A stretch of 64,000 bases of DNA from Olsenella sp. oral taxon 807 (GTDB taxonomy: Bacteria; Actinomycetota; Coriobacteriia; Coriobacteriales; Atopobiaceae). The stretch spans positions 682,001 through 746,000 of the forward strand of contig NZ_CP012069.2 of the NCBI RefSeq assembly GCF_001189515.2. The letters are read 5' to 3'. The position numbers were made by a program, and so were the translations under genes. Shown here one piece after another: positions 45,985 to 52,650 of this stretch. Each line of letters starts with the position of its first letter. Position 1 is the first letter of the stretch. Below the pieces are notes generated by a model that worked only from the letters and a program-made list of their open reading frames with translations, ran no database searches and was not told the origin of the DNA.

Positions 45985-45999
45985 ATGAGGGGAGCAGTT

Positions 46000-46566
46000 G
46001 TGGATAACTATTCCAACTATGGGGGTTCCAACTATTCCAACTCTGGGGGTCCTAACCTTGGCTATGGGGAGCCCAGCGGTGCCCAGCGCGGCTTGAAGGT
46101 CCTTGCGATCCTACATACGATCGGAGGTGTTCTCATGCTGGGCCTCTTGCTCATGTGGTCTGTCAAGGCACAAGCTAATGCTGAGAGCAAGATCAGTCAG
46201 GCGTCTCTCTTAATCCAGAAGTTGGGTGAGCAAGGCATCGTTTTGTCTGAGTCAGAGAGTGCCTCTCTGATGCTTACTATTATCATCATGGCTATAGCTG
46301 TTCTGCTTAGCGTTGCCGTGTTACTGACGGGTGTCTTTGGTATTCGTGCGGCAAACGATCCTGAAAAGGTGACACCGTATCTGGTGACATCGGGCATCTT
46401 GCTTGCCTATAGGATATTTGATATACTAGCAACTATTCTGAATCAAACCTTCACACTCACGTTCTGGACCCTGATCGGTGTGGGTATTCCTGCGCTTGCG
46501 GTTTGGCTTGGCGTGTCCATCAAGCAGCAGCGGGATCAGGCGCGCATGCCTGGGGTGCAGCGGTGA
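46000..46566 (+). CDS. Small four-helix membrane protein, copy 1 (5' region interrupted by IS)
   Basis: About 188 residues. A Tyr/Asn/Gly-rich N-terminus with YSNYGG-type repeats precedes four predicted membrane helices (about 35-58, 92-118, 128-150, 155-180) and a short basic tail KQQRDQARMPG. It is a paralogue of the gene at 47374, with near-identical second half. GTG at 46000 is preferred because GAGGGGAG lies just upstream; the ATG at 45985, inside the IS target duplication, is in frame five codons earlier. The IS removed the native leader, so expression would depend on a promoter in or before the IS. Family and function are unknown; copy 1 has one fewer N-terminal repeat than copy 2. Confidence 0.7.
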   Translation: MDNYSNYGGSNYSNSGGPNLGYGEPSGAQRGLKVLAILHTIGGVLMLGLLLMWSVKAQANAESKISQASLLIQKLGEQGIVLSESESASLMLTIIIMAIAVLLSVAVLLTGVFGIRAANDPEKVTPYLVTSGILLAYRIFDILATILNQTFTLTFWTLIGVGIPALAVWLGVSIKQQRDQARMPGVQR

Positions 46567-47358
46567 CCTGTAGGGATAGCCTTTGAGGATGTGTGCGGCC
46601 CTTACGCCTCGACTGACCCCAAGAGAGCGGTAGGACAGCGCCTTAGCTGACTCAGTCTTCTTGGCAGCACTCGTTGCTGCCGTCAGGGGGCAGGGAGAGA
46701 GCAATCATGTCGTGGGTCCAGGAACATGGGCGGGCATTGCGAGGAGGATCCGTAGGCAATGGCCTTGGCCCCTCGCCTTGGAGCCGGGCAGCGCTAGCTG
46801 GCAGCGGACGGGCATTCCTAAGTGCCCATGTGGCACAGAGGTCGTACCAACACTGTGCCTGGTGCAGCCCCCTGCGCTAATGCGATGCGGGACAAATCCG
46901 CTTGACCAGCCGAGAAAGCTCCCTGCCTGCAGAAGCGACCTCCCTGCCTGCAAAGAGATTCCCCCTCGCGGAAGGGTCGTTCCCGGCAAGGTCAGAGGCG
47001 CGTCCCGATGCCGATGCTGCGCCCCTAGGCCCAAAGGTCGTCCCGAGCGTACCGCTCGCACTGCCACTCGCTCCCGAGCGTGCAGCCCCGTACGTTCAAG
47101 ACCGAGTGGCAGTGTCGGCGTACCGCTAGCAGTTTCAATCGCCTCTCGCACCGGCCGTGGGCGAGATCTCCGCAGTCTATCGATTGCTCCGCGTGCCCCT
47201 CATGCGATTGGGACGCTAGAATCAGCGTCTGTCAGTCCGGCGGCCGGTGCTCTGGGCCAAAGCGTGGGAGAGTCGCCGTCTCTCGGGGACCTCCATCCTT
47301 GATCTTTTGAGTAGTCTTCCTTCAACTTCTGCTATATTTGTGTGCGAGGCGTAGACGA
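46567..47358. repeat. Duplicated intergenic leader (second cassette)
   Basis: This 790-base gap is a diverged copy of 43380-44193. Shared blocks include a GTACCA(A/G)CA(C/T)TGTGCC start (46846 and 43387), CAAAGAGATTCCCCCTCGCG (46959 and 43533 areas), a CACTGCCACTCG/CGAGTGGCAGTG pair (about 47060 and 47101), and a nearly perfect 60-base stretch ending GCGAGGCGTAGACGAATGA (44135-44193 and 47303-47362). The last block holds a TGCTATATT extended -10 candidate. No gene is recognised in it. Confidence 0.7.
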
Positions 47359-47373
47359 ATGAGGGGAGCAGTT

Positions 47374-47961
47374 GTGGATAACTATTCCAATTATGGGGGA
47401 TCTAACTATTCCAACTATGGGGGTTCCAACTATTCCAACTATGGGGGCTCTAACCTTGGCTATGGGGAGCGCAGCGGTGCCCAGCGCGGTTTGAAGGTCC
47501 TTGCGATTCTACATGTGGTCGGAGGCGTTCTCATGCTCTTGGCTCTCTTATTCATATGGTCTCTTTATGTACGTGAGGAAGCTGGGGCCGGGGGTAGCTT
47601 GACAACTTACTTAGTCCAGGAGTTAGGGGCGCGAGGCATCGCTATATCTGAGTCAGAGCTTACCTCTCTATTATTTGTTATTGCCGTCAAGGCTGTTCTG
47701 ATTAGTGTTGCCGTGTTGCTGACGGGTGTCTTTGGTATTCGTGCGGCAAACGATCCTGAGAAGGTGACACCGTATCTGGTGACATCGGGCATCTTGCTTG
47801 CCTATACGATATTTGATGTTCTAGAGAGCATTTTTGCTCAGACCTTCAAACTCACGTTCGGGACCCTGATCGGTGTGGGTATTCCTGCGCTTGCGGTTTG
47901 GCTTGGCGTGTCCATCAAGCAGCAGAGGGACCAGGCGCGCATGCCCGGGGCCCAGTGGTAG
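47374..47961 (+). CDS. Small four-helix membrane protein, copy 2
   Basis: About 195 residues. Three to four YSNYGG(S) repeats at the N-terminus are followed by four predicted membrane helices; the segment TGVFGIRAANDPEKVTPYL between helices two and three and the C-terminal half are almost identical to copy 1, while helix one and the first loop (REEAGAGGSL versus KAQANAES) differ. GTG at 47374 with GAGGGGAG just upstream is the preferred start; ATG at 47359 is possible. The intact leader has a TGCTATATT extended -10 candidate. I do not recognise the family. It is convergent with the gene at 47977, 15 bases away. Confidence 0.75.
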   Translation: MDNYSNYGGSNYSNYGGSNYSNYGGSNLGYGERSGAQRGLKVLAILHVVGGVLMLLALLFIWSLYVREEAGAGGSLTTYLVQELGARGIAISESELTSLLFVIAVKAVLISVAVLLTGVFGIRAANDPEKVTPYLVTSGILLAYTIFDVLESIFAQTFKLTFGTLIGVGIPALAVWLGVSIKQQRDQARMPGAQW

Positions 47962-50468: not shown

Positions 50469-50504
50469 ACTTGATACATCGGATCGACTTGATACATCGG
50501 ATCG
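50469..50504 (+). repeat. Perfect 18-bp tandem repeat upstream of the LuxR-type gene
   Basis: ACTTGATACATCGGATCG occurs twice head to tail (50469-50486, 50487-50504), ending 54 bases before the start codon at 50559. It may be an operator for the downstream regulator. A GCAGGG/CCCTGC hairpin follows at about 50511-50532. The rest of the 290-base divergent gap shows nothing else clear. Confidence 0.65.
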
Positions 50505-50558
50505 CAGGCAGGGTGAGAAAGAAGCCCTGCGTGCAAGAGTCTGAGGGAGAGGGCGCGC

Positions 50559-52151
50559 ATGAGACAGCTGCGATTGATGTTGGACCTTGCAAGAACGGGA
50601 GCTTGCATGAGGGCAAGAGCTGCAGTACCCCAGCTGGGTTGCTCCATAGGAGCGGCCACCCTCATCTTTATTCCCATGCTTGTGTCTGCGGATCCCACCC
50701 TTACAGCTGTGCTCTCCCATACCGCGTCTTCCGCTGTCGCATGCGCGCTGGTCGCCGTTGCGGGCGCAACGTATCTTGCGCAGCGAGATGTCGCGCCGCC
50801 CGCAGCCCTCGCGCCGGCTTTGCTGGTCTCGTTCGTCGCGTCCTCCCTCGTCTATGCGCTCAGGCTGGACGTGACCACATCGATCGCAGGCGATGCCTTG
50901 GGGTGGGTGTCGCGCCTGGTCGCATGGATGAGCCTCGCAGCACTCGGGCCGCTCTGGGTGTTTCCTGCAGGCGGCGGTGCCGAGGGCCTCAGGGCCTCCC
51001 GGCTGGCCTTCATGGAGATGGTGGGCCTGCTCGTCCTCTTCACGCTTGGGGTGGCCGCACATGTGTGCATGGCTGGGGTCGTGGCTGAGGGTATGCTTGA
51101 TCAAAGTGGCCGTCTTGGCTTTGCGGTAGCCGCCTTTGCGTTGGTGATGTCCTGGCGGTGTCTCTCGAGGCTGCTCTCACACATACGCCTTGCCCCTGGT
51201 GTCCCTCAAGATGGCGCGCAGGGCGATGCCGAGGCGTGGGGCCAGGCCCGTGCAATCGAGAGGCTTGACGGGGCCGAGAGGCTGACGGGACGTGAGAGGT
51301 CGGTCCTTGGCCTGCTCTCAGAGGGCAAAGCTCAGGTACAGGTCGCAGTCCAGCTCGGCATTAGCCCCTCCACAGTCTCCACCTATCGTGCTCGGGCACT
51401 CAGGAAGCTTGGACTTCCTGCCGACTGCGATCTGCGCCACCTCGGGACAAAGGACGCGGCGCCCGTCGTGCATCCTGCCGTCCGTGTGTCCCGGGTGGCT
51501 CCTCTCGGGGGCTTTCTGCTTCCTTTGGCGTGCGTCCTTTTGGGGGTGCTCCTGGAGGGCCTGAGTCTCTCCCAGGGTTGGGACGCAGGCCATGTGGGGG
51601 TGCGCCTCGCCCTGTCGTGGGTAGTCATGCTTTGGCTGGCGGTTCGTCTTTGGGTACCTAAGGAGCTGAGCCTCGACACGATGATGGGAACAAGGGCTCT
51701 CGCTGTGGCGTCGGCCTGTTGCTTGGGGCTGCTGCTTGGTCCGACGGCAGCGACCGAGCAGGGCGTCTCTCTCTTCGGCTTCCTGCAATTCAACCTCAGC
51801 ACAAGCAACTTCCTCTTACTGCTCCTCTGCTGCGCCGTCCTACTTGCTGTGGCACATTCGCTCTTGTCTAGGGGACCTTCCTGTGATATACCCATGGGTC
51901 CCCAGGGAGAGGAGGCCTGCCTGCACTACCTCATCGGCCGAGGGCTCAACGAGCTGCAGGCGAAGGTCACCTTGGAGCTTGCCCGGGGCCAGAGCCGAAG
52001 GGACATAGGCCAGAGGCTTCACGTGGCCTTGGGTACGGTGAGCTCATACAGTTTTGGTGCGTATCGCCGCCTCGGCGTCCACTCAAGAGCCGAGCTTGCC
52101 AGGCTCTTGTCCAGAGACGTCGGTTACAAGGGGGATGGGCGCATCGCGTAG
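50559..52151 (+). CDS. Membrane-embedded regulator with two LuxR-type HTH domains
   Basis: A 530-residue protein with the order membrane domain, HTH, membrane domain, HTH. About six hydrophobic helices span residues 25-205; a LuxR/GerE HTH is at about 242-290 (LTGRERSVLGLLSEGKAQ, GISPSTVSTYRARALRKLG); a second hydrophobic region spans about 310-430; a second, more diverged HTH is at about 464-515 (LARGQSRRDIGQRL, TVSSYSFGAYRRLGV). Coriobacteriia commonly encode membrane proteins with one C-terminal LuxR HTH; two are unusual and suggest a fused tandem duplication. The signal sensed and targets are unknown. A purine-rich GAGGGAGAGG precedes the ATG. An 18-bp tandem lies upstream. Confidence 0.8.
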   Translation: MRQLRLMLDLARTGACMRARAAVPQLGCSIGAATLIFIPMLVSADPTLTAVLSHTASSAVACALVAVAGATYLAQRDVAPPAALAPALLVSFVASSLVYALRLDVTTSIAGDALGWVSRLVAWMSLAALGPLWVFPAGGGAEGLRASRLAFMEMVGLLVLFTLGVAAHVCMAGVVAEGMLDQSGRLGFAVAAFALVMSWRCLSRLLSHIRLAPGVPQDGAQGDAEAWGQARAIERLDGAERLTGRERSVLGLLSEGKAQVQVAVQLGISPSTVSTYRARALRKLGLPADCDLRHLGTKDAAPVVHPAVRVSRVAPLGGFLLPLACVLLGVLLEGLSLSQGWDAGHVGVRLALSWVVMLWLAVRLWVPKELSLDTMMGTRALAVASACCLGLLLGPTAATEQGVSLFGFLQFNLSTSNFLLLLLCCAVLLAVAHSLLSRGPSCDIPMGPQGEEACLHYLIGRGLNELQAKVTLELARGQSRRDIGQRLHVALGTVSSYSFGAYRRLGVHSRAELARLLSRDVGYKGDGRIA

Positions 52152-52272
52152 GTGGAACGTAGAGTCCTATCATCCGCCGTCGAGCTGTGCAGTCCGCAGT
52201 CGGGTCCTCCGCCTCGTTCGGCCTTTCACCTCGTTCGCAGTCGGGCCCTCTGCCCCGTCCTTGGGGCGCATG

Positions 52273-52650
52273 AGCGAAGTGGGCCGATAAGCCGGGTTCT
52301 GTCGTGGACGGCCATTTATCTACGGGCACCGTTACCGGTGCTCTCTAGCACGCAACCCGAGCGCAGTGCGGGCCACACCATGGCGCTCCTATTTGCGCTT
52401 GCTCCGAAAGGGGCTTGCCAAGCCGCCTGGTCGCCCAGGCGCTGGTGGTCTCTTACACCACCGTTTCAGCTTTTCTCTCACCCGCCTGAGCGGGCAGCGG
52501 GAGTCTTCTTTTCTGCGGCGCTTTCCGTCGGGTCACCCCGCCTGGCCGTTAGCCAGCTTCCTGCCCTGTGGAGCCCGGACTTTCCTCATGGCCCGCCCTC
52601 CGGTCTACAGATGACGGGCCCCGCAGTCGTCTGGCCCACTTCGCGCGACC
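52273..52650 (-). ncRNA. rnpB: RNase P RNA (bacterial type A)
   Basis: Read on the minus strand, the conserved 5' region GAGGAAAGTCCGGGCTCC is complementary to about 52573-52590, and the 3' region ACAGAACCCGGCTTATC to about 52285-52301. The ends pair: GCGAAGTGGGCC (5') with GGCCCACTTCGC (3'). The size, about 375 nt, fits type A RNA of high-GC Gram-positive bacteria. It is the catalytic subunit that matures tRNA 5' ends. A TACAAT hexamer just upstream on the minus strand (about 52655-52660) is a likely -10. It is convergent with the LuxR-type gene. Exact ends are estimated. Confidence 0.95.

Follow-up and report, generated by a model that had tools for sequence, protein, structure and literature searches.

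A putative membrane regulator of Olsenella sp. oral taxon 807 with two LuxR-type HTH domains separated by a predicted membrane segment

How might a protein that stays in the membrane act on a promoter when two DNA-binding domains of the same chain flank part of its membrane domain? The question is raised by a gene in the 64,000-nucleotide stretch of the Olsenella sp. oral taxon 807 chromosome analyzed here (the window), and a related one has been posed for regulators of gut Coriobacteriia. According to the main text of Dong et al. (2022, PMC9734109), DadR, HcdR, and CadR of Eggerthella lenta carry 10 to 12 N-terminal transmembrane (TM) helices followed by one C-terminal LuxR-type (pfam00196) helix-turn-helix (HTH) domain, and were shown genetically to regulate enzyme genes. 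The same text reports that induction was restored neither by DadR without its TM domain nor by a version without the HTH (whose expression was unconfirmed), that membrane LuxR proteins with a single HTH are frequent in Coriobacteriia, and that the molecular mechanism of these TM-LuxR regulators is unclear. For this group it has yet to be explained how a polytopic protein controls a promoter from within the membrane, and a membrane domain lying between two DNA-binding domains provides a concrete, testable geometry for membrane-DNA coupling.

The gene (positions 50559 to 52151, forward strand, as are all features of the gene given below) is an intact open reading frame (ORF) of 530 amino acids with an ATG start, preceded by a ribosome-binding-site-like sequence (GAGGGAGAGG, 50543 to 50552). 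Pfam GerE (PF00196) matched the protein with 79.9 bits in two stretches, which in a genome-wide search scored 54.8 bits (E value of 2.4e-14, window 51279 to 51434) for the first domain, HTH1, and 33.3 bits (E value of 1.3e-7, window 51966 to 52106) for the second, HTH2, both above the curated cutoff of 23.5 bits. TM segments were predicted from hydropathy with a crude, home-made positive-inside predictor. The N-terminal membrane part (residues 26 to 203, 50634 to 51167) contains six of them (26-44, 48-68, 82-101, 120-137, 154-176, and 186-203), with low-confidence AlphaFold2 helices in support; the close orthologue block has 22 rows, and 18 of them have four predicted in this part. It is followed by HTH1 (residues 238 to 293, 51270 to 51437), in a loop that joins TM6 to TM7 and is predicted to be cytoplasmic, by a middle membrane part (residues 313 to 436, 51495 to 51866) with four segments (313-332, 346-366, 380-398, and 418-436), and by the C-terminal HTH2 (residues 458 to 518, 51930 to 52112). 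The membrane-HTH-membrane-HTH order read in the first-pass annotation was thus recovered, as six TM, HTH1, four TM, and HTH2 within one ORF. Pfam searches with this protein and with three others (L036, L037, and L047) matched solely HTH-type and sigma-70 region 4 DNA-binding families.

Structure prediction with AlphaFold2 (24 input sequences) folded each HTH with high confidence, with 10-residue pLDDT means of 88 to 96 for residues 231 to 290 (70 for 291 to 300) in HTH1 and of 93 to 98 for residues 451 to 520 in HTH2. Over the full protein the mean pLDDT was 62.7 and the pTM 0.33; the membrane parts were poorly modeled, and the placing of the two HTHs relative to each other is not readable from the model. 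Four helices of low confidence (316-336, 343-365, 372-392, and 415-437) separate HTH1 from HTH2. When the whole model was compared to the PDB with Foldseek, no match reached an E value of 0.001 or better; the top matches were LuxR/NarL-type DNA-binding proteins, with FixJ, StyR, EL222, DosR, and NarL within the first seven.

To see how widely this arrangement recurs, we searched 140 genomes of the window's family (Atopobiaceae) and found matches at an E value of ≤1e-6 in 45. The best 21 after the window's own came from 21 other genomes and spanned both HTHs, while in most of the weaker ones HTH2 alone was covered. Both HTHs were present in every row of a 24-row alignment selected by layout. 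We also searched 296 Coriobacteriia genomes with an 18-row profile of the HTH1-TM-HTH2 region, from which the N-terminal membrane part was left out; at most seven candidates per genome were scored, so that the counts are lower bounds. Matches at an E value of ≤1e-18 were found in at least 47 of these genomes (35 from the window's family, 9 from family f5, and 3 from family f2). At least 52 of the 85 match rows, from at least 36 genomes, of which 32 belong to the window's family and 4 to f5, covered the full span, that is, from profile position 10 or before to position 320 or beyond (profile length of 345). In one f2 genome (G282), a single frame of 815 amino acids gave two partial matches that jointly cover both profile ends, and the double-HTH layout may also be present in that family. 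A GerE search of four genomes from outside the family, with the frames read by eye, gave one two-HTH frame in G149 (f2, with 83 GerE matches) and one in G144 (f5), the HTHs being adjacent in both, and none in G140 and G142.

A stop codon fell within the match in 5 of the 52 full-span rows. One of these comes from another two-HTH locus of the genome that contains the window, which lies in two overlapping reverse-strand frames (L002:1498-2469 and L002:2318-3313; G000:C1, about 224,800 to 226,700), a 331-amino-acid ORF that is hydrophobic by eye and a 323-amino-acid HTH1-TM-HTH2 ORF. The N-terminal frame had no Pfam match; a frameshift in the gene, an error in the sequence, or a genuine split form would each explain the locus. 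This copy shows that split or broken copies exist, and it is what could be said for regarding the 530-amino-acid gene as an assembly fusion, a frameshift artifact, or a decaying gene. The window ORF is intact, however, and its fused layout is shared by the 21 orthologues and the full-span rows. As HTH1-TM-HTH2 recurs in related bacteria, it is not a sequencing error; this conservation led us to reject assembly fusion or chance, and an artifact or decay is hardly credible here. As a separate observation, one orthologue (L021, L076), matched to residues 130 to 524 with one stop, has its N-terminal part interrupted by an in-frame TGA; it comes from a metagenome-assembled genome, so that either decay or error could be involved. 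The same genome as the window also encodes a third two-HTH membrane protein of 756 amino acids (L036:823-3090, forward strand; G000:C1:1650822-1653089), laid out by the crude predictor as about 10 TM, HTH, 8 TM, and HTH.

Both HTHs of the window protein are probably cytoplasmic, judging from the parity of the predicted segments. We compared 43 widely spaced two-HTH proteins, a set that includes near-copies (L037/L038 and L049/L054), and excluded TM segments overlapping an HTH from the even/odd count. In the charge-aware prediction, 42 proteins had an even number (4, 6, 8, 10, or 12) of TM segments lying entirely between the HTHs, and both HTHs were placed inside in 39. Among the exceptions, HTH1 was placed outside in L022, L027, and L028, while L040 had five TM and both HTHs outside; all four have a predicted TM segment overlapping an HTH. 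Because positive charge on the inside raises the predictor's score and HTHs are basic, we repeated the prediction blind to charge at six settings. The count was then even in 37 to 38 of the 43 proteins and, depending on the setting, in 16 to 19 of the 21 rows that do not belong to the close orthologue block. For the window protein, four TM from HTH1 to HTH2 were predicted at all six settings as well as in the charge-aware run.

The first-pass annotation had also suggested that a single-HTH membrane regulator was duplicated in tandem and fused to give this protein, with the second HTH more diverged. The latter holds against the Pfam consensus but not among the 21 close orthologues, where HTH2 is the best-conserved region (mean identity of 78%, versus 72% for HTH1, 45% for the middle membrane part, and 41% for the N-terminal one). 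As for the duplication, single-HTH membrane LuxR proteins are frequent in the class, many GerE matches fall in open frames of about 500 amino acids, and hhalign shows homology of HTH1 with HTH2 (probability of 95.8 to 96.7%). The two membrane parts, however, have no detectable homology (0.2 to 0.6%, with profiles of 21 to 22 rows), on which ground we rejected a tandem duplication of the whole protein. Neither is the identity between HTH1 and HTH2 any higher within one protein than across proteins (27.8% in both cases, 40 proteins), and HTH1s and HTH2s each group away from the single HTHs. A very old event could be masked by the low conservation of the membrane parts and the small profiles, and a fused duplication of a complete single-HTH regulator is, all in all, very improbable. 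The tree is consistent with a duplication confined to the HTH and old enough to predate the radiation of these proteins.

In a tree of 78 HTH rows (61 columns, L060 left out), HTH1, HTH2, and single HTHs were separated with the minimum of two changes (supports of 85/82, 78/70, and 87/83, unstarred and with the bootstrap unsettled). In a fuller tree of 108 rows, where long branches meet, the five groups given by layout labels needed nine changes versus a least number of four. Identity among HTH1s and among HTH2s was about 37% each in a 21-protein subset. The distances among HTH1s and among HTH2s were correlated (Mantel r of 0.89 for 40 proteins and 0.57 for the 21-protein subset, with 0 of 2,000 permutations as high), which is the expected outcome of coinheritance. 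The consensus of the recognition helix was TVxTYRxRA for HTH1 and TVNAYRA for HTH2, versus TVKxHVS for the single HTHs.

A further set of proteins (L056 to L062) has two HTHs close together with no TM between them as read. In L056 to L059, L061, and L062, which belong to the same taxonomic order as the window protein, the HTHs are of the same two types, grouping in the trees with HTH1 and HTH2, and the recognition-helix consensus of these back-to-back pairs is TVGSxRQRA and TVxSARA. Whereas the pair is split by a membrane domain in the window protein, the HTHs are adjacent in these relatives, with one hydrophobic segment (by eye) after the pair in L056 to L059 and before it in L061. We conclude that the pairing of the two HTHs probably predates the radiation of these proteins; a membrane block would then have been either inserted into the pair or lost in the adjacent forms. 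The relatives with adjacent HTHs would offer this pair in a more tractable form. L056, L057, L058, and L059 likely have an extracytoplasmic part beyond the single TM read from their sequences, and weak PASTA matches below the cutoff were seen in L056 and L058 (20.2 and 21.5 versus 23.2 bits). The protein L060, from the f2 genome G149, is hydrophobic by eye and has two nearby C-terminal LuxR HTHs, which grouped with single HTHs in the 108-row tree and are perhaps an independent doubling.

Compared to DadR, HcdR, and CadR, the window protein is alike in combining a polytopic membrane part and a LuxR-type HTH on one polypeptide, in belonging to the same class, and in its one-component logic. While those regulators have 10 to 12 TM before the HTH, here ten are predicted, split 6 + 4 (with four before HTH1 in most of the close block), and the single C-terminal HTH of the former is represented by HTH2, to which the internal HTH1 is added. 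Since two defining features, the number of TM before the HTH and the single HTH, do not apply, the protein is a double-HTH variant of the 10-12-TM LuxR regulators and not a member of the family as published. With an even number of predicted TM separating two HTHs on one chain, it belongs with the double-HTH membrane proteins described here. A further trait of the published family is substrate-dependent activation of an adjacent enzyme gene. ToxR and CadC have a winged-helix OmpR-type domain, with one TM helix and one DNA-binding domain per chain. They share with the window protein a membrane-tethered DNA-binding domain that acts from the membrane, but the latter is LuxR-type and polytopic and has two HTHs. 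The main text of the study of the E. lenta regulators (PMC9734109) contains no occurrence of two HTH, Olsenella, or Atopobi*, and that of PMC3466318, which surveys the LuxR proteins of actinobacteria, none of Coriobacteri*, transmembrane, or two HTH. We found no description of a two-HTH LuxR membrane protein in a literature search by title and start of abstract, with subscription journals and preprints mostly outside its coverage; one of the papers that it returned, PMC11585353, contains the words 'membrane-bound LuxR'.

By analogy with DadR, HcdR, and CadR, we infer a one-component membrane regulator. The reading that we favor, with modest confidence, is that of a membrane-embedded transcription regulator in which HTH1 and HTH2 form an old built-in pair acting together on two neighboring half-sites. 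The six N-terminal and four middle TM would anchor the protein and presumably sense a small molecule or the state of the membrane or envelope. HTH1 from its loop and HTH2 from the C terminus are both predicted to face the cytoplasm, and trees and alignments suggest a coinherited pair of distinct LuxR-type domains with related recognition helices. Most likely they would contact two adjoining half-sites, and movements of the membrane parts would change the position of one HTH relative to the other. DNA binding by an intramolecular pair, as suggested at first reading, is plausible, and is made more likely by the relatives in which these two HTH types stand side by side. Joint action is favored here because the HTHs are coinherited, have similar recognition-helix patterns, and are adjacent in those relatives.

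The form of the pair would not necessarily be the textbook one. The last helix is the dimer helix in NarL and GerE. Since in HTH1 this helix is very short in the AlphaFold2 model (residues 292 to 294), in a stretch that in many orthologues of the 24-row alignment runs soon into proline, a canonical symmetric HTH1-HTH2 dimer is doubtful, and there may instead be an asymmetric pair, a dimer with four HTHs, or a regulatory role for one HTH. Two copies of the built-in pair may also associate, for instance by way of the last helix of HTH2. This asymmetry with HTH2, whose last helix is full length (510 to 521) and whose start is altered (GELQA in place of TxRER), could also mean that one HTH alone binds DNA, HTH2 (or HTH1) now having a protein-protein or regulatory function, for example as a dimerization module or as an internal inhibitor masking the other HTH until a signal arrives. 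Ser498 in HTH2 of the window protein, at a position occupied by Arg in at least 90% of the 24 rows, points the same way. However, the TV-x-x-Y pattern appears in both consensuses of the widely spaced proteins, the HTHs are the most conserved regions, and the back-to-back relatives have retained both types, so we regard a single binding HTH as unlikely. The last helix kept by HTH2 would also suit two proteins dimerizing through HTH2, with each HTH1 adding flanking contacts, in which case the working unit would be four HTHs and the intramolecular pair alone would not bind; this arrangement we judge improbable.

Returning to the built-in pair, a tentative generalization, for which we claim rather less confidence, is that in Coriobacteriales an old heterotypic pair of LuxR HTHs acts as one DNA-binding unit that has been built into several architectures, namely HTH1-HTH2-TM-outside, TM-HTH1-HTH2, and TM(4-10)-HTH1-TM(4-12)-HTH2. 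If so, in the last of these the membrane domain would sit inside the DNA-binding pair, and a membrane signal could directly set the distance or angle of the two DNA grips.

The surroundings of the gene were examined for possible targets. A perfect 18-bp direct repeat in two copies (50469 to 50504, forward strand) ends 54 bp upstream of the start codon and may be an operator or a product of slippage; autoregulation through it is possible. As its 17-base core had no copies in the whole genome, at up to two mismatches, beyond these two, no regulon can be derived from it. Upstream, on the opposite strand, are genes for a radical SAM protein and a DUF4130 protein; RNase P RNA (52272 to 52642, reverse strand) is found downstream, as are a UPF0029 protein and a HAD-type hydrolase. 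In 19 of 22 orthologue loci from Olsenella, Thermophilibacter, and others (L076 to L097), frames with L35 and L20 motifs, recognized by short patterns, precede the gene on its own strand; in the other three the upstream flank is short, and a Gordonia locus (L098), a weak one-HTH match, was left out of the count. A family of downstream frames occurs in 10 of the 22, and the two of the ten that were scanned (in L076 and L078) are Acyl_transf_3. The window copy is located outside this neighborhood, so that no target can be inferred from its neighbors, and no conserved neighbor pointing to a target was found in the window locus and the 22 orthologue loci. Elsewhere in the window, two similar neighboring ORFs (45985 to 46566 and 47338 to 47961) with SNYSNYGG-type N-terminal repeats and hydrophobic stretches appear to be a tandem gene pair.
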